Part shown: piece after piece, positions 1,066 to 18,700 of the stretch
Position numbering within the stretch: position 1 is the stretch's first letter
How the letters are laid out: each line of letters starts with the position of its first letter
DNA from: Alphaproteobacteria bacterium
Lineage (GTDB): Bacteria; Pseudomonadota; Alphaproteobacteria; Thalassobaculales; Thalassobaculaceae
Reading direction: 5' to 3'
Length of the DNA: 64,000 bases
Assembly: GCA_024742605.1 (NCBI GenBank)
Contig: JANSYC010000005.1
Coordinates: 1 to 64,000, forward strand
Notes under the pieces: model-generated
Seen by the model: the letters and a program-made list of their open reading frames with translations, nothing else
What the model was told of the DNA's origin: nothing
Databases searched by the model: none
Made by a program: the position numbers and the translations under genes

Positions 1066-1185
1066 CGAGTACTTCGGCGCGTTTCTCTTTCTACTGGGCG
1101 ACGCCTTCCCGAGGAAAGCATTCGTTAACTTCCCTTTGGTAAGCCATCTGTGACGACAATCGTCGGACACGGAATTGGGCGTATC

Positions 1186-3543
1186 ATGGGTCCTCTGCGA
1201 AAATTCATTCTCGGCCTGGCGCTCTGCGGCGTCTCCCTCGCGATGCGGGCAGGCCCCACCGTGGCCGACGACAAGATCTCCCTGCAACTCCGGTGGGAGC
1301 CGCAGTTTCAGTTCGCCGGTTACTACATGGCGTTGGAGCGGGGCTATTACGCCAAGGCCGGACTGGATGTCGAGATCCGGCCCGCGGTTGCGCCGGGGCC
1401 GCGCTATCTTTCCGCGGTGACGGAAGTCGAAGAGGGACGGGCGACCTTTGGGATCGGCGCCGTCGACGTGGTTCTGGCACGGGCCAACGGAGCGCCCCTC
1501 AGCATCGTCTCCAGCATCTTCCAGCACAGCCCGGTCGAAGTCTACACGCGGGCGGAGACCAGGACCGCCGATCTCAGTGAGTTGATGGATCTCCGCTTCT
1601 CAACCGGATTTCAGCGGAACGGTCCGGCCGAGATCGAGCTGCGCGCGCTGTTGCGGAGCGAGGGCATGGACCTGACCGACGTGCGGATACCGGAAACGGA
1701 AAAACCGTCTTTCGATGCTCTTCTGGGCGGCGAGATCGACGTGATGCCGGGGTTCTCGCTCGCCCTGCCCTGGATCGCGGCGGAGCGGGGTGTGCTGCTG
1801 AATGCGATCAAACCTGCGGAATTCGGCATTCATTTCTACGGGGATTCCCTGTTCGCGCGGGAAGACGCGATCCGGGAGGATCCCGAGCTGGTCAGCCGGT
1901 TCGTGACGGCGTCCCTGGAGGGATGGGAATACGCGCTCAACCATCCCGAGGAGACGATCGCCGTCCTCCTGGACCGGTATTCCCGGATCGACGGCATGGA
2001 GAACGAGCAGGCATTCAACAGATGGCAGTCCCGGATCGTCGAAGACCTTATCGACTTTCCTGATGTCGCCCTCGGCAACACCAGCAAGGAGCGGTGGGAG
2101 CGGATGGGGGCGCATCTGATCGGTCTCGGCCTGATCGGTCATCCCGAGCGGCTCGCCAATCTGGTGATCCACCCGGAAACCGTGGCTTTGCAGCAGGCCG
2201 CGCAACGTCAGCAATGGCTGATCTACAGCGTCGTCGGCCTCCTGGGCGCGGGCTTGGCCCTCTCGTTGTTTGCCCTTGTGATGCGCGCCCAGATCAATCG
2301 CCGCACCGCCGATCTGGCGGACGCCCGGAAGAAGGCGGTCAAGGCCATGGAGGCCGCCGAAGAGGCCAATCGGGCGAAGTCGCAGTTTCTCGCGGCCATG
2401 AGCCATGAGCTTCGGACCCCACTGAACGCTGTGATCGGCTTCGCCGACCTCCTGGGCTCGGGGGTCATGACGGACCTGTCGCAAAGCAAAGTCCAGTCCT
2501 ATGCGCGCAACATCGGCGAGTCCGGCCACACCTTGCTGGCCCTGATCAACGATGTGCTGGATTTCGCGAAGATCGATTCCGAGCATCTGGTCCTGAACCA
2601 GGACACCTTTTACGTCTCCAAGACCTTCGCGAGTTTGGTCTCCTCATTCGAAATCAAGGCGGCCGATGCCGGGGTCAGGCTGTCGACCTCGATCCTGACC
2701 GGCGATCTCGCGGCGCGGGGGGATGCCGTGCGCCTGCGGCAGGTGGTCTCGAACCTGCTCGACAACGCGATCAAGTTCTCCACCGACGGGTCGGTGGAGC
2801 TGCGGGTCGAGGCGGAGGAGTCCGCACCGGGCCAGCTTCTGATCCGCGCGACGGTGCGGGATACCGGGATCGGGATCGACACAACGCGTCTCGACGCGAT
2901 CTTCGAGCCCTTTGTGCAGTCCCGGGGGTCGATCTCCCGCCAGTACGGCGGGACCGGGCTCGGCCTCGCGATCTCCCGGTCCATCGCCCGGCAGATGGGG
3001 GGCGATCTGGTCGCCAGCAGCGTCCTGGGCGAAGGCAGTGTCTTCACCGCCACCTTCCTGCTCGAGGACATGACCGAGCAGGTCCAACGGCTTGCCGGCG
3101 AACAGACCCCCACCCCGGACCCCGCCAAACCGGCTCTCGGCCTCAGGGTCCTGATCGTCGACGATGTGGAGACCAATCTGAAGATCGCCGAGGCGATGCT
3201 GAAGGAGCTCGGGTGTCAGGTCGAAACCGCGCGCGGCGGCCGGGAAGCGGTCGACTGGGCAGCAGACAACGACGTCGACGCGATCCTCATGGACCTTCAG
3301 ATGACCGGCATGAGCGGACTCGACGCCGCCATCGCGTTGTCAAGACTGCGAGGGGATCGGCCTGTTCCGTGCTTCGCCTGGACCGCGGATGTGACCTCGC
3401 TCCAGACCCTCGATCACGTCGATTTCGAATGGGCCGGCCTGATTCTGAAACCGGTCACGCTCAAGAACCTCCTGGGTGCCTTGCGGCCGATCGCGGCCGC
3501 GAGACCGGCCGACCCGAGTCGGACATTTCGGAAGATCGCCTAG
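1186..3543 (+). CDS. Hybrid sensor histidine kinase with periplasmic NMT1/THI5-like binding domain
   Basis: About 785 residues from this ATG. Order: signal peptide (MGPLRKF then a hydrophobic stretch to about residue 28); a periplasmic solute-binding domain of the NMT1/THI5-SsuA family (LQLRWEPQFQFAGYYMALERG, about 35-330); one membrane helix at about 350-370; a coiled coil; HisKA with the phospho-acceptor His in MSHELRTPLNAV (H407); a HATPase domain with NLLDNAIKF, DTGIGID and GTGLGLAIS; and a receiver domain with the acceptor Asp near 703 (ILMDLQM) and the switch Lys in LKPVT. An in-frame GTG at 1150 would add 12 residues before the signal peptide and is less likely. THI5/SsuA folds bind pyrimidines, sulfonates or similar ligands; the ligand here is unknown. 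No partner regulator or transporter is adjacent, so the output is unknown. Confidence 0.85.
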   Translation: MGPLRKFILGLALCGVSLAMRAGPTVADDKISLQLRWEPQFQFAGYYMALERGYYAKAGLDVEIRPAVAPGPRYLSAVTEVEEGRATFGIGAVDVVLARANGAPLSIVSSIFQHSPVEVYTRAETRTADLSELMDLRFSTGFQRNGPAEIELRALLRSEGMDLTDVRIPETEKPSFDALLGGEIDVMPGFSLALPWIAAERGVLLNAIKPAEFGIHFYGDSLFAREDAIREDPELVSRFVTASLEGWEYALNHPEETIAVLLDRYSRIDGMENEQAFNRWQSRIVEDLIDFPDVALGNTSKERWERMGAHLIGLGLIGHPERLANLVIHPETVALQQAAQRQQWLIYSVVGLLGAGLALSLFALVMRAQINRRTADLADARKKAVKAMEAAEEANRAKSQFLAAMSHELRTPLNAVIGFADLLGSGVMTDLSQSKVQSYARNIGESGHTLLALINDVLDFAKIDSEHLVLNQDTFYVSKTFASLVSSFEIKAADAGVRLSTSILTGDLAARGDAVRLRQVVSNLLDNAIKFSTDGSVELRVEAEESAPGQLLIRATVRDTGIGIDTTRLDAIFEPFVQSRGSISRQYGGTGLGLAISRSIARQMGGDLVASSVLGEGSVFTATFLLEDMTEQVQRLAGEQTPTPDPAKPALGLRVLIVDDVETNLKIAEAMLKELGCQVETARGGREAVDWAADNDVDAILMDLQMTGMSGLDAAIALSRLRGDRPVPCFAWTADVTSLQTLDHVDFEWAGLILKPVTLKNLLGALRPIAAARPADPSRTFRKIA

Positions 3544-12961: not shown

Positions 12962-13273
12962 ATGACTTCTCCGTCCGAAGACACCGTCCCGACGCCCCCC
13001 GCCCCGCCGGAAAACCTCCGGTCGCCACGGGAAATACTGCAGCATGCGCAGACCCTGTCCGCCGCCGGGTGGCACCCCGAAGCGATCGCGCTGCTGAAGG
13101 AGCTTGCGGAGACCCCGACAGGGGCGCATCCGCGGTTCCGTATCGTCCTGACGGAGGTGCTGCTGGCGGCCGGTCTGTTCGACCAGGCCGACCGGATCAC
13201 CGTTTCCGGCCCCCTGGCCCCGGACTTGGCGGGTGCCGACAACCCCGAGGAGCAGCAGGGGGCGCGGTCATGA
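12962..13273 (+). CDS. Small helical-repeat (TPR-like) protein overlapping the carbamoyltransferase gene
   Basis: 103 residues. A Pro-rich 20-residue start is followed by two helix pairs with TPR-like spacing: REILQHAQTLSAAGWHPEAIALLKELAE and PRFRIVLTEVLLAAGLFDQADRI. Its stop codon overlaps the carbamoyltransferase start (ATGA, 13270-13273), which suggests translational coupling and joint action. It may be a substrate- or partner-binding subunit of the carbamoyltransferase. I do not recognise a named family. Confidence 0.65.
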   Translation: MTSPSEDTVPTPPAPPENLRSPREILQHAQTLSAAGWHPEAIALLKELAETPTGAHPRFRIVLTEVLLAAGLFDQADRITVSGPLAPDLAGADNPEEQQGARS

Positions 13274-15285
13274 TCGTTCTCGGCGTTCATATGGGCCATG
13301 ATGCGGCGGTTGCCGTGCTGGTCGACGGGCGGGTCGAAAGCCTGATCGAGCGGGAACGCAGAACCCGGATCAAACATGCCGCGATTGCGACGATCGACGA
13401 TATCGACGCCGCCCTCGCCGATGCCGGTCTCTCCATTGAGGATGTCGATCGGATCGCGGTGACGACCACGCAGAACTGGCCGTTTCTGTTCGTCGAACCG
13501 GACAGGTTCAAATTCGTCTATGCGCCCGAAGCCGCTGCCGACGTAAGGGCCGGGGTCACGGTCGCCAAAGCCATGACCGGTTCCTGGGACAGCTGGTCGA
13601 AGGCCATGGCCGATCAGGAGGAGCGTGGGCGGACCCGCCTGCGCAATTTCCGGGACTTTCCGGACACGCGGGATCTGTTCGGGCAGTTGCCGGGTGAACG
13701 CCCGGTGGATCCCTCCAGCCCGGATTGTGAAATCCTCTTCACGCAACAGTTCCCCTTTTTCCCGCCTCCCTGGGCGGACAGCCAGCGCGCGGATCAGATC
13801 CGACCCGCGGCCCGCGCGCTCTACGGCACGTCCGGGTGGCGCGAACTTAGTGTCGGGGCTTTCCACATCCCGATTCTGGCGACCATCCACGGACGGCGGA
13901 TCCCCGGCGCGGTGATTCCGCATCACCTGGCGCACGCGGCGACGGCGTTCTATGGCTCCGACGCCGAAACCGCCGCCGTGATCACCCATGACGGCGGCCA
14001 GGGCAGTTCGCCCTACGGCCATACCGGGGGCCTGTACTGCTTCGGCGAAGGCAACAGGCTGTATCCGATCTGGTTCAATCACGGCACCGGCGGCAACATG
14101 TACCGCCGGATAGCCGATGCCTGCGGCCTCAAGGGCATGGGCGGGCCGGGCAAGCTGATGGGCCTCTCTCCCTATGGCACGCCCCGCTTCCACGACGACA
14201 GTTGGGTCGGGACCGCCGGCGATCTCGCGGACCGCCACCCGGCCGATCCGGACAGCGTTCCGGTCGCCCTCTACGAGCGAGCCTGGCCCTATATGCGGGC
14301 CGCCCTGATCGCCGAGCGGGACGCGGGGATTCGCCATCCGATCCCCTCGTATGACCCGTTGCTTGGGTTCTCGAAAGATCTGGCCGCGTCGATTCAGCGG
14401 ACCTTCGAGGCGCAGACGCTGGCAATGGCGCACCAGATCAAGGGCCTCGCGGATGATCAGGGCCTTGCGACCGACACCTTGTGCCTCACCGGTGGATGCG
14501 CCCTGAACTGTCCGGCCAACTCCCGGGTCTGGCGGGAGTCGGATTTCGGCTCGGTGTTCGTGCCGCCGACCTGCGACGATTCCGGCCTGGCGATCGGCGG
14601 CGCGTTTTATCTCGCCCACACCCTGTTGGACGAACCGCGCGCCGATCAGGGCGCGGCGACCTGCGGGTCGGCCTATCTCGGACGCCGGATCGCCGCCACC
14701 GAAGTTACGGTCGCGGTGAACGCGGCAGAGGATATGCGGGTCGAGACCGGGCTGGACTGCGCCGAGATGGCGGCCGCGGATCTGGTCGAAGGGCGGATCA
14801 TCGGGTGGTACGAGGGACGGTCGGAGATCGGGCCGCGCGCCCTGGGCCACCGCTCGGTGGTCGCCGACCCGCGCCGGGCCGACAGCTGGCGCCGGGTCAA
14901 CAAGGTGAAGAATCGGGAGCAGTGGCGGCCGCTGGCACCGGCGGTGCTGGTCGAACGGGCCGCAGACTGGTTCGAGGGCGCCCCGCCGGCCAGCCCGCAT
15001 ATGCTGTTCACCGCCACCGTGACCCGGGACGACGTTCCGGCGATCACCCATGTGGATCGCTCCGCGCGGGTCCAGACGGTGGACGAGAGCTGCGGCGGGT
15101 TCCGGGATTTGATCGCGGCGTTCGAACGCAGCACCGAGGTTCCGGTGGTGATGAACACCTCGCTGAACGGGCGCGGGGAGCCGATCGTCGAAAGCCCGGA
15201 CGAAGCGGTCGCCATGTTCCGGAACTCGGACCTGGACGTGCTCTATCTCGATGGCCACCGGCTGACCCGGACCGGCTCCTCATAG
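13270..15285 (+). CDS. NodU/CmcH-family O-carbamoyltransferase
   Basis: 671 residues. The N-terminal Kae1/ASKHA-like domain starts VLGVHMGHDAAVAVLVDGRVESLIERER, has the metal motif HHLAHAATAFY, ITHDGGQG for nucleotide binding, and LTGGCALNCPANSRVW. The C-terminal YrdC-like domain contains SEIGPRALGHRSVVADPR and KNREQWRPLAPAVL. These enzymes make carbamoyl-AMP from carbamoyl phosphate and ATP and transfer the carbamoyl group to a hydroxyl (Nod factors, cephamycins, glycans). The start at 13270 overlaps the preceding TPR-like gene. The acceptor here is unknown; the nearby TylF-like O-methyltransferase hints at decoration of a sugar or secondary metabolite. Confidence 0.93.
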   Translation: MIVLGVHMGHDAAVAVLVDGRVESLIERERRTRIKHAAIATIDDIDAALADAGLSIEDVDRIAVTTTQNWPFLFVEPDRFKFVYAPEAAADVRAGVTVAKAMTGSWDSWSKAMADQEERGRTRLRNFRDFPDTRDLFGQLPGERPVDPSSPDCEILFTQQFPFFPPPWADSQRADQIRPAARALYGTSGWRELSVGAFHIPILATIHGRRIPGAVIPHHLAHAATAFYGSDAETAAVITHDGGQGSSPYGHTGGLYCFGEGNRLYPIWFNHGTGGNMYRRIADACGLKGMGGPGKLMGLSPYGTPRFHDDSWVGTAGDLADRHPADPDSVPVALYERAWPYMRAALIAERDAGIRHPIPSYDPLLGFSKDLAASIQRTFEAQTLAMAHQIKGLADDQGLATDTLCLTGGCALNCPANSRVWRESDFGSVFVPPTCDDSGLAIGGAFYLAHTLLDEPRADQGAATCGSAYLGRRIAATEVTVAVNAAEDMRVETGLDCAEMAAADLVEGRIIGWYEGRSEIGPRALGHRSVVADPRRADSWRRVNKVKNREQWRPLAPAVLVERAADWFEGAPPASPHMLFTATVTRDDVPAITHVDRSARVQTVDESCGGFRDLIAAFERSTEVPVVMNTSLNGRGEPIVESPDEAVAMFRNSDLDVLYLDGHRLTRTGSS

Positions 15286-15371: not shown

Positions 15372-15764
15372 ATGCCATCCGAATTCAGGTTCCTGGTCTT
15401 CTCGCCGAAGGAGGCTGCCCAGGCGCTCGCGACATTTGCCCGCAAACGCGGCCGCAAGCTCCCCGACGGTTACCTCAACTACGCGGTTCCGGGTCCCGGA
15501 ACGCCGCCGAGCGGGCGCCTGTTCGTGACCCCGGACGAAGGCAAGGATCTCGAATCGGCCTTTGCCGCCGAAGAGGTCGTCGCAGCCCTGATCCTGTTCG
15601 CGCTCGACAACAAGATCCCGCTCCCCCGCTCCGGCGAGAAGGTGTTGGAAGCGCTGAGATTGTCCGGATCGGACCTGTTCGCCCTGCGGATCGGCATGTT
15701 CCCTCTGCCGGACTCCCCGGCCTCCGACAAAAAGACAGCGGAACCGGCAGCCTCCAAAAGCTGA
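15372..15764 (+). CDS. Hypothetical protein, 130 residues
   Basis: Not recognised. It starts MPSEFRFLVFSPKEAAQALATFARKRG, reads as an alpha/beta fold of about 115 residues, and ends in a Lys/Ser/Ala-rich tail. A phrase LPRSGEKVLEALRLSGSDLFALRIGM suggests a helix pair near the C terminus. There is no signal peptide or membrane helix. It lies between the carbamoyltransferase and the ethylene-domain kinase on the same strand, 86 bases after the former and about 100 bases before the latter, so it may share their transcript. Codon use matches its neighbours. Confidence 0.6.
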   Translation: MPSEFRFLVFSPKEAAQALATFARKRGRKLPDGYLNYAVPGPGTPPSGRLFVTPDEGKDLESAFAAEEVVAALILFALDNKIPLPRSGEKVLEALRLSGSDLFALRIGMFPLPDSPASDKKTAEPAASKS

Positions 15765-15867: not shown

Positions 15868-17850
15868 GTGATCGACTGGCTGTTTCGTGCCGAGGGTTTC
15901 GCCCCGCATGGCATGTGTCTGATCTGGGATCAGAACGTCCTGGCCGTCCACGCGATCTCCGACACGGTGATCGCGCTGTCCTACTTTTCGATCCCGGCGG
16001 TCCTGTTCATCATCCTCAGACGCCGGCCGGATCTCAATCCGCACGGCATCCTGCACCTGTTCAGCCTGTTCATCGTCGCGTGCGGCTTCACCCACGTTCT
16101 GGCGATCGTGACCCTGTGGGAGCCGGTGTACAACCTGTCGAGCCTCGCCAAAGGCCTTACGGCGCTCGTCTCGGCGATCACCGCGATCGTGCTCTGGCCG
16201 TTGCTGCCGCGTGTGCTCGCCACCCCCTCCCACCAGGAACTCGCGCTGGCAAACCAGCAACTGACCGAGACGGCCGCCGAGTTGACCGAGGCCTCGCAGG
16301 CCCGCGCGCGCTTTCTCGCCATGATGAGCCATGAGATCCGGACCCCGCTGACAGGCATCATCGGGTTCACCGAGATTCTGCGGCGGGAACCCCTGGAGGC
16401 CCGGGGGCGGACCGTTCTGGAGCACATTGCGACGGCCTCCCGATCGCTGCAGGCCCTGCTGGGGGATATTCTCGAGTTCTCCAGAATGGACCAGAACACC
16501 CTGATCCTCCACGAGGAGCCGATCGATCCGAGGGCGCTGATCGACCAGATCGAGCGCGAGGCCACCGGAACGGCCAAAGCCAAGGGGCTGGCCCTGTCCG
16601 TCGAAATCGATCCCGACGTGCCGCCCCGGATCGTGACCGATCCTCTGCGGGTGCGTCAGATCCTGATCAACCTGATCTCCAACGCGATCCGCTACACCGA
16701 ACGGGGGCAGGTCATGGTCGGGATCTCGAATCTCGCGTCGCCGGCCGACGGCACCGAGTCCCGCCTCGAAATCTCGGTGAAGGATACCGGGCCCGGAATC
16801 CCCGAGCATCAGCGTAAGGCCATCTTCGACGCCTTCGTGCAGGCCGACACTCGGAAGCTTCAAACCGGTCGGGCGGAAGGCGGGGCGGGGCTGGGCCTGG
16901 CCATTGTCCGCAAGGTGGTCGATTCGCTCGGAGGCGATATTCGCCTGGAAAGCGCCGTGGGCTTCGGGTCGGAATTCACCGTCACCCTGCCCTATCGGCT
17001 TGCGGCGGCTGAATCTCCTTCCCCGTCGTCTGGCGAGGTGCCGGTCGAGACCCAACCCATGTTCGGCCGGATCCTGCTGGCCGACGATGTCGAGATGAAT
17101 CGGTCTCTGTTCACGGACCTGCTGTCCGGTGTCTCGAGCCAGGTGACCGCGGTGGCCGACGGCCAGCAGGCGCTCAACTCGCTTTCCGTCGACTCCTTCG
17201 ACGTCGCGGTGATCGACATTCAGATGCCGGTCATGGATGGCCTGGAATTCGTGCGCGCGGTTCGCAGTTCGGAAGATCCGAAGATCCGAACGCTGCCGAT
17301 CGTCGGCCTTTCGGCGGCCGCCTTTGCCGAGGATCGCGCCCGGGCCCTGGACGCCGGCATGGACAGCTATGTCACGAAGCCGACCTCCCAGGAGTCGCTG
17401 ATCCGAGGGCTGATGCTGGCAACGGCACAGCGGGGAGAGCGGACGGATATCGGGGAACTCCTCCCGGAGGCGACGGCGGATCCGTCTTCGGACGGCACAT
17501 TCGACCAAGCCTTCTTCGACCGCCAGACGGCCGTCCTGGGATCCGAGAACGTCCGCGCCTATCTGGGCAAGCTCGCAGCCGAACTGACCATTCGTCGACA
17601 GGCCCTGCAGGACGCGCGCGCCACCGGTGACCATGCGGCGGTCGCGCGGCTGGCCCATGCGATTGCGTCCACCGGCGGCAATATGGGTTTCATCGGGCTC
17701 TATCGGGCGGCCCAGGCGGTGGAAGCCGGGGCGACCCGCACCCAGCCCGGATCGGATGCGACGATCGACGCGAGCCTGGGGCTCTTGCAGGCGGCGTTGG
17801 ACGACGCTTTGGACCGAATTCCGGCTCTGATTGTTCAGCAGACCCCCTAG
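15868..17850 (+). CDS. Hybrid histidine kinase with ethylene-binding (ETR1-like) membrane domain, receiver and HPt
   Basis: 660 residues from a GTG with a GGGGGAGGG ribosome site. Residues 25-115 form three membrane helices of the ethylene-receptor type: D32 and Y39 in SDTVIALSYFSIP and C72/H76 in ACGFTH reproduce, with identical spacing, Asp25, Tyr32, Cys65 and His69 of Arabidopsis ETR1, the last two being the copper(I) ligands. There is no GAF domain; a coiled coil leads straight to HisKA (H155 in MSHEIRTPL), HATPase (LINLISNAIRY, DTGPGIP, GAGLGLAIV), a receiver (D450 in VIDIQMP, Lys in VTKPT) and an HPt domain (H597 in RLAHAIAS). It is probably a copper-dependent ethylene (or other small olefin) sensor feeding a phosphorelay; no cognate output regulator is adjacent. 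Confidence 0.9.
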   Translation: MIDWLFRAEGFAPHGMCLIWDQNVLAVHAISDTVIALSYFSIPAVLFIILRRRPDLNPHGILHLFSLFIVACGFTHVLAIVTLWEPVYNLSSLAKGLTALVSAITAIVLWPLLPRVLATPSHQELALANQQLTETAAELTEASQARARFLAMMSHEIRTPLTGIIGFTEILRREPLEARGRTVLEHIATASRSLQALLGDILEFSRMDQNTLILHEEPIDPRALIDQIEREATGTAKAKGLALSVEIDPDVPPRIVTDPLRVRQILINLISNAIRYTERGQVMVGISNLASPADGTESRLEISVKDTGPGIPEHQRKAIFDAFVQADTRKLQTGRAEGGAGLGLAIVRKVVDSLGGDIRLESAVGFGSEFTVTLPYRLAAAESPSPSSGEVPVETQPMFGRILLADDVEMNRSLFTDLLSGVSSQVTAVADGQQALNSLSVDSFDVAVIDIQMPVMDGLEFVRAVRSSEDPKIRTLPIVGLSAAAFAEDRARALDAGMDSYVTKPTSQESLIRGLMLATAQRGERTDIGELLPEATADPSSDGTFDQAFFDRQTAVLGSENVRAYLGKLAAELTIRRQALQDARATGDHAAVARLAHAIASTGGNMGFIGLYRAAQAVEAGATRTQPGSDATIDASLGLLQAALDDALDRIPALIVQQTP

Positions 17851-17941: not shown

Positions 17942-18700
17942 ATGGTAGAGACTTCCAATGATCCGCTGGACGGCCTGCCGCGCGCGGAGCAGGCGGCGAT
18001 CCAGCTGCCCGAATCCCTGGTGGACGGTTTCGACGTGGGGCGGGCCTTCGCCGCATCTGTGCAACCGACCGGGACCACGCTGTCCAGAGAGCAGGTCTTC
18101 AAGCGCCTCCTGAAGATCGGCCAACTCGTCAAACTGCTCCGGGGACGGATCCGGCATCTCGGGGTGGACCTGACCCCGATGATCGCCGAGACCGGAGTCT
18201 GGCGAGGCCTGAGCGCCCGGGTCATCGCGCTTGCAGTCGCCGATGTTCGTCCCGGCTGGACCGGGGCAGGGCTGCATCTGGTCGACAGTTTCGAGGGTCT
18301 GGGAGCCCCCAGCACCGAGGACACGGTCGACGACGGCACAGGGGAACGCCGCGCCTTCTCCCATGCGACCAATTTCGAGAGCAGCCCGGACGTCGTCCGC
18401 AGTGCCCTGAGCGACTTCCCCGAGACCAGCATTCACACCGGGTGGATTCCGGAAATTCTGGCCGATCTTCCGGACCGGAAATGGGATTTCGTGCATCTGG
18501 ACACCGATCACTACATTCCGGTGCGCGACAGTCTGGCGTATTTCCTCGATCGGATGGCGCCCGGAGGGGTGATCGTGAACGACGATTACGGCTCGAACTT
18601 CTTTCCCGGCGCCCGCATCGGCTGGGACGAGGTCCGCGCCCGCCACGGGCTTGCCCATGAGGTCTTCGAGACCGGTCAGGCGGCGATCACCGTCGACTGA
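17942..18700 (+). CDS. TylF/MycF-like class I SAM-dependent methyltransferase
   Basis: 252 residues from the ATG at 17942; the frame runs open upstream to 17831 but overlaps the kinase end. The N-terminal 80 residues are helical; then GVWRGLSARVIAL (SAM-binding Gly region, here with Trp/Arg rather than the usual GxGxG), LHLVDSFEGL (acidic ribose-binding residue) and WDFVHLDTDHYIPVRDSLAYF, the TylF metal motif with Asp residues, then GGVIVNDDYGS. TylF/MycF enzymes methylate sugar hydroxyls of macrolides; homologues occur in glycan loci. Converges on the pirin gene. It may act with the NodU-type carbamoyltransferase 2.7 kb upstream. Confidence 0.8.
   Translation: MVETSNDPLDGLPRAEQAAIQLPESLVDGFDVGRAFAASVQPTGTTLSREQVFKRLLKIGQLVKLLRGRIRHLGVDLTPMIAETGVWRGLSARVIALAVADVRPGWTGAGLHLVDSFEGLGAPSTEDTVDDGTGERRAFSHATNFESSPDVVRSALSDFPETSIHTGWIPEILADLPDRKWDFVHLDTDHYIPVRDSLAYFLDRMAPGGVIVNDDYGSNFFPGARIGWDEVRARHGLAHEVFETGQAAITVD

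Follow-up and report, generated by a model that had tools for sequence, protein, structure and literature searches.

An ethylene-receptor-like hybrid histidine kinase with a candidate one-chain His-Asp-His relay in an alphaproteobacterium

What does the membrane-bound kinase encoded at positions 15868..17850 (+) of our window, a 64,000-nucleotide stretch of DNA from a bacterium of the Thalassobaculaceae, sense, and by which route would it pass the signal on? The product is an ethylene-receptor-like hybrid histidine kinase of 660 aa with a GTG start, and this start recurs in a sister species of the same genus (G001). There, contig C207 carries the same leader, the GTG start and the first 15 codons (VIDWLFRAEGFAPHG) before it ends; because the same start and 15 codons occur at the same locus, we consider the GTG start supported. 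Directly upstream of the kinase start, C207 encodes an ortholog (94% identical) of the small 130-aa protein that in the window (15372..15764, +) ends 103 bases before the kinase, the arrangement being the same in both species. Another G001 contig, C71, terminates within the beginning of the methyltransferase gene, and the G001 kinase probably falls in the assembly gap between contigs; its receiver and HPt parts were not found in that genome. Conservation of the locus within the genus is a direct observation.

The N-terminal part of the kinase (residues 1-118, 15868..16221, +) matches the ethylene-binding domain (EBD) family PF25487, ETR1_N, over residues 24-118 with 114.4 bits vs a cut-off of 27 (E = 3e-33), a score far beyond chance. 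In our alignment D32, Y39, I42-P43, C72 and H76 correspond to ETR1 D25, Y32, I35-P36, C65 and H69, and I69 corresponds to I62, so that none of the seven residues on which ethylene binding by ETR1 depends is missing; K95 aligns with the Lys of ETR1 helix 3 (K91). The N-terminal letters that we take to be those of ETR1 in this comparison themselves reach 117 bits with the ETR1_N profile. Among the 83 EBD proteins collected, 53 keep all seven residues and 69 keep the Asp, Cys and His set. The original prediction of a plant-type EBD, which pointed to the ETR1-like spacing of D32, Y39, C72 and H76 and to the Ile-Pro after the Tyr, is borne out by the family score together with the complete residue set, and we conclude that, as judged from its sequence, the domain is a clear relative of the gas-binding part of the plant ethylene receptor. 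In ETR1, Cu(I) sits at Asp25, Cys65 and His69 (PMC12643061), and C72 and H76 would be the corresponding copper ligands here. Ahead of helix 1 lies a PHGxC motif (kinase residues 13-17, window 15904-15918) that is nearly invariant (>=90%) in bacterial EBDs and to which nothing in ETR1 aligns; its Cys may form a dimer disulfide.

Hydropathy and structure modelling agree on three N-terminal transmembrane helices. In the model of the EBD on its own (mean pLDDT 94) these are long and span residues 22-52 (15931..16023, +; D32, Y39, I42 and P43), 58-84 (16039..16119, +; I69, C72 and H76) and 88-118 (16129..16221, +; K95); the first two are further supported by alignment and motif check, the third by alignment and by both models. 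Four rows from plasmid records were left out of the alignment used for structure modelling. In the full-length model (mean pLDDT 79), helix 3 runs almost directly into a helix of residues 122-172, the HisKA dimerisation region. A search for solved structures matching the EBD returned none by sequence, and by fold no match below E 0.001.

The cytoplasmic half contains, in this order, HisKA (145-209; 16300..16494, +; PF00512, 72 bits) with the phospho-acceptor H155 followed by an EIRT motif, HATPase_c (258-376; 16639..16995, +; PF02518, 96.5 bits) with intact N, G1 and G2 boxes, a receiver (402-512; 17071..17403, +; PF00072, 77.5 bits) with the phospho-acceptor D450 and with its acidic pair and Lys in place, and an HPt domain (566-649; 17563..17814, +; PF01627) with the phospho-His H597 in AHAIASTGG. 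The Pfam profile search detected no GAF match in the kinase, the plant-type (subfamily 1) GAF being absent from between the EBD and the kinase region. Both the domain order and the residues H155, D450 and H597 are as originally proposed, and the other sequence details of that proposal which we checked were likewise correct.

We infer that this kinase is probably an ethylene receptor that depends on copper and signals through a His-Asp-His relay to a response regulator not encoded beside it. Cu(I) would be held in the three-helix membrane domain by C72, H76 and probably D32, with ethylene binding at the metal. Binding could then alter the kinase through helix 3, modelled as leading almost directly into the HisKA dimerisation helix, and phosphate would travel from H155 to D450, on to H597 and finally to a response regulator encoded elsewhere. 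As for the direction of the response, disruption of the receptor in A. brasilense and in Synechocystis mimics ethylene, which has been read as inhibition of the kinase by ethylene (PMC11819568). We assume the same for the window kinase, whose activity ethylene would most likely lower if it behaves like plant ETR1 and the bacterial receptors.

The last steps of this relay invite an alternative. The Hpt match is marginal (26.5 bits vs a cut-off of 24.6), and the Lys that usually follows the phospho-His is replaced by Ala. Moreover, no response regulator adjoins the kinase gene, as the original prediction had stated, and EBD kinases of the family are as a rule simpler. It is therefore possible, if doubtful, that the sensor is real and the relay different, a degenerate HPt or the receiver acting as a phosphate sink while output passes from HisKA to a separate regulator or from the kinase alone. 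However, H597 is kept, the HPt region forms a helical bundle in the full-length model, and a kinase from another genome of the same family (L085, from G034) has the same Ala yet reaches a better Hpt score (36.4 bits). We thus favour the complete relay. Its partner regulator would be encoded elsewhere, among the genome's 43 receiver matches; small single-receiver proteins lie, for example, at G000:C69:55971, C45:33185, C45:29366, C164:11373 and C139:15847.

A different question is whether ethylene is the physiological signal. The key residues first of all form a metal site, roles beyond ethylene have been discussed for bacterial receptors (PMC11819568), and the family extends to lineages not obviously associated with plants, such as Acidobacteriota and Verrucomicrobiota. 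A domain that binds copper and responds to copper itself, to another small alkene or gas, or to redox state is nonetheless rather unlikely in our view, since the residues for ethylene as well as those for copper are kept and the two characterised bacterial receptors respond at about 1 ppb ethylene (PMC11819568). That the EBD is a vestigial or non-functional copy, as its patchy presence in 8 of the 36 family genomes might suggest, is very improbable given that no ligand-site or catalytic residue is lost and that the sister species has the same gene start at this locus.

With an ethylene receptor as the preferred reading, we turn to its relatives. ETR1_N-bearing genomes make up 8/36 of the family/order sample, 28/385 of the class sample and 29/398 of the phylum sample, that is, about 7% of the sampled class and phylum genomes, and EBD relatives are found in Cyanobacteriota as well as in Acidobacteriota and Verrucomicrobiota. 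That several phyla contain such receptor genes has been published before. In our tree, which rests on a short alignment and leaves many forks open, the window EBD is sister (83/92) to a clade of short kinases with this domain from the same family, a paralog from its own genome among them. Its position beside these kinases and inside the ethylene-receptor-like family appears moderately supported; therefore, the placement outside ethylene receptors that was named beforehand as speaking against the assignment was not obtained. The paralog (G000:C142:41771; L002, L094) is a protein of about 440 aa consisting of EBD, HisKA and HATPase only; it keeps all seven residues and has an ortholog in G001, and no receiver match was found in the surroundings examined.

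The original prediction also implied that the architecture had not been described before, and here our survey leads to a different assessment. Among 65 full-length EBD relatives, 59 have HATPase_c, 27 PAS, 22 a receiver and four Hpt; GAF occurs in at most one, no GAF family being among the 25 families listed, and the characterised receptor AzoEtr1 of Azospirillum brasilense also does without it, so that a GAF-free EBD kinase is not new. Nor is a receiver-HPt relay, as the Hpt-bearing proteins comprise, besides the window kinase, L085 from the same family, which is free of GAF and PAS, and two PAS-bearing proteins from elsewhere in the phylum, L118 and L119. The EBD-HK-REC-HPt layout is thus present in at least three further sampled proteins. 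Because the EBD of L085 groups with Novosphingobium EBDs, apart from that of the window kinase, the tree suggests that this layout arose more than once. Even the missing output regulator sets the locus less apart than proposed, AzoEtr1's own adjacent regulator having no output domain (PMC11819568). The output architecture of the window kinase is less common, but recurring, and a review had already noted that the output domains following bacterial EBDs vary widely (PMC7700396). On two Novosphingobium conjugative plasmids (L082, 5995-7462, and L083) a single-domain response regulator comes after an EBD kinase; L082 also has type II CRISPR genes upstream.

The neighbourhood had likewise been put forward as novel. 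The kinase lies between a NodU-like carbamoyltransferase (about 13159-15285) and the 130-aa protein upstream, the latter with no Pfam or NCBIfam match, and a TylF-like methyltransferase (17942-18700) downstream. In other genera, no homolog of the methyltransferase or of the small protein adjoined an EBD gene, and in the 36 family genomes such adjacency was seen only within the genus; we therefore propose no functional tie of the kinase to these two neighbours. The 130-aa family has three copies per genome in the genus (window 15372-15764; G000:C20:7157; G000:C96:17898). These paralogs do not show a general link to a response regulator, as a regulator adjoins just one locus per species. Elsewhere in the window, at 1150-3543 (+), a hybrid kinase uses an NMT1/THI5-like periplasmic binding domain as its sensor, followed by HisKA, HATPase_c and a receiver.

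The genome also encodes an ACC deaminase (G000:C69:46112-47119) scoring 558 bits vs an equivalog cut-off of 392; a second, lower-scoring relative is found at C44. ACC deaminases above the cut-off occur in 6 of the 36 family genomes, three of which are shared with the eight EBD-bearing ones, a co-occurrence that is not significant (hypergeometric p 0.11). ACC deaminase and the second EBD kinase fit an organism that meets ethylene, and the enzyme hints that ethylene matters to it. Whether two differently wired receptors, a simple kinase and a complete one-chain phosphorelay, combine with ACC degradation in a bacterium that senses and lowers the ethylene of its host or neighbours is a tentative idea, one that we hold to be conceivable rather than probable. 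Work on bacterial ethylene receptors has so far been limited to a few of them, and a one-chain relay together with a simple paralog in one genome would allow the wiring of one gas-binding domain to different outputs to be compared.

How does this kinase compare with known systems? Arabidopsis thaliana ETR1 shares an EBD with all binding residues as well as HisKA, HATPase and receiver, but it has GAF, lacks HPt, resides in the ER membrane and signals mostly independently of its kinase (PMC11819568, PMC12643061). SynEtr1 of Synechocystis and GeiEtr1/2 of Geitlerinema are likewise bacterial EBD kinases, yet their architecture includes PAS, GAF or both (PMC6682694); the regulator that receives the signal of SynEtr1 is slr1213 (PMC11819568). 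The HK-REC-HPt half resembles that of tripartite hybrid kinases of the TorS/BarA/ArcB type, whose sensor is unrelated and whose NCBIfam cut-offs lie far above the scores of the window kinase. L085 has the EBD directly before HisKA, HATPase, REC and Hpt, as here, and differs in the affiliation of its EBD to those of the Novosphingobium plasmids and in an extra stretch ahead of the receiver. AzoEtr1 (strain Sp7), whose residues 1-130 bind 14C-ethylene when expressed in yeast (PMC11819568), is also an alphaproteobacterial histidine kinase, with an EBD that is 41% identical to ours and has the seven residues. In contrast to the window kinase, which joins receiver and HPt in one chain and has no adjacent regulator, AzoEtr1 lacks both receiver and HPt, includes a PAS domain and is encoded next to a single-domain regulator (PMC11819568).
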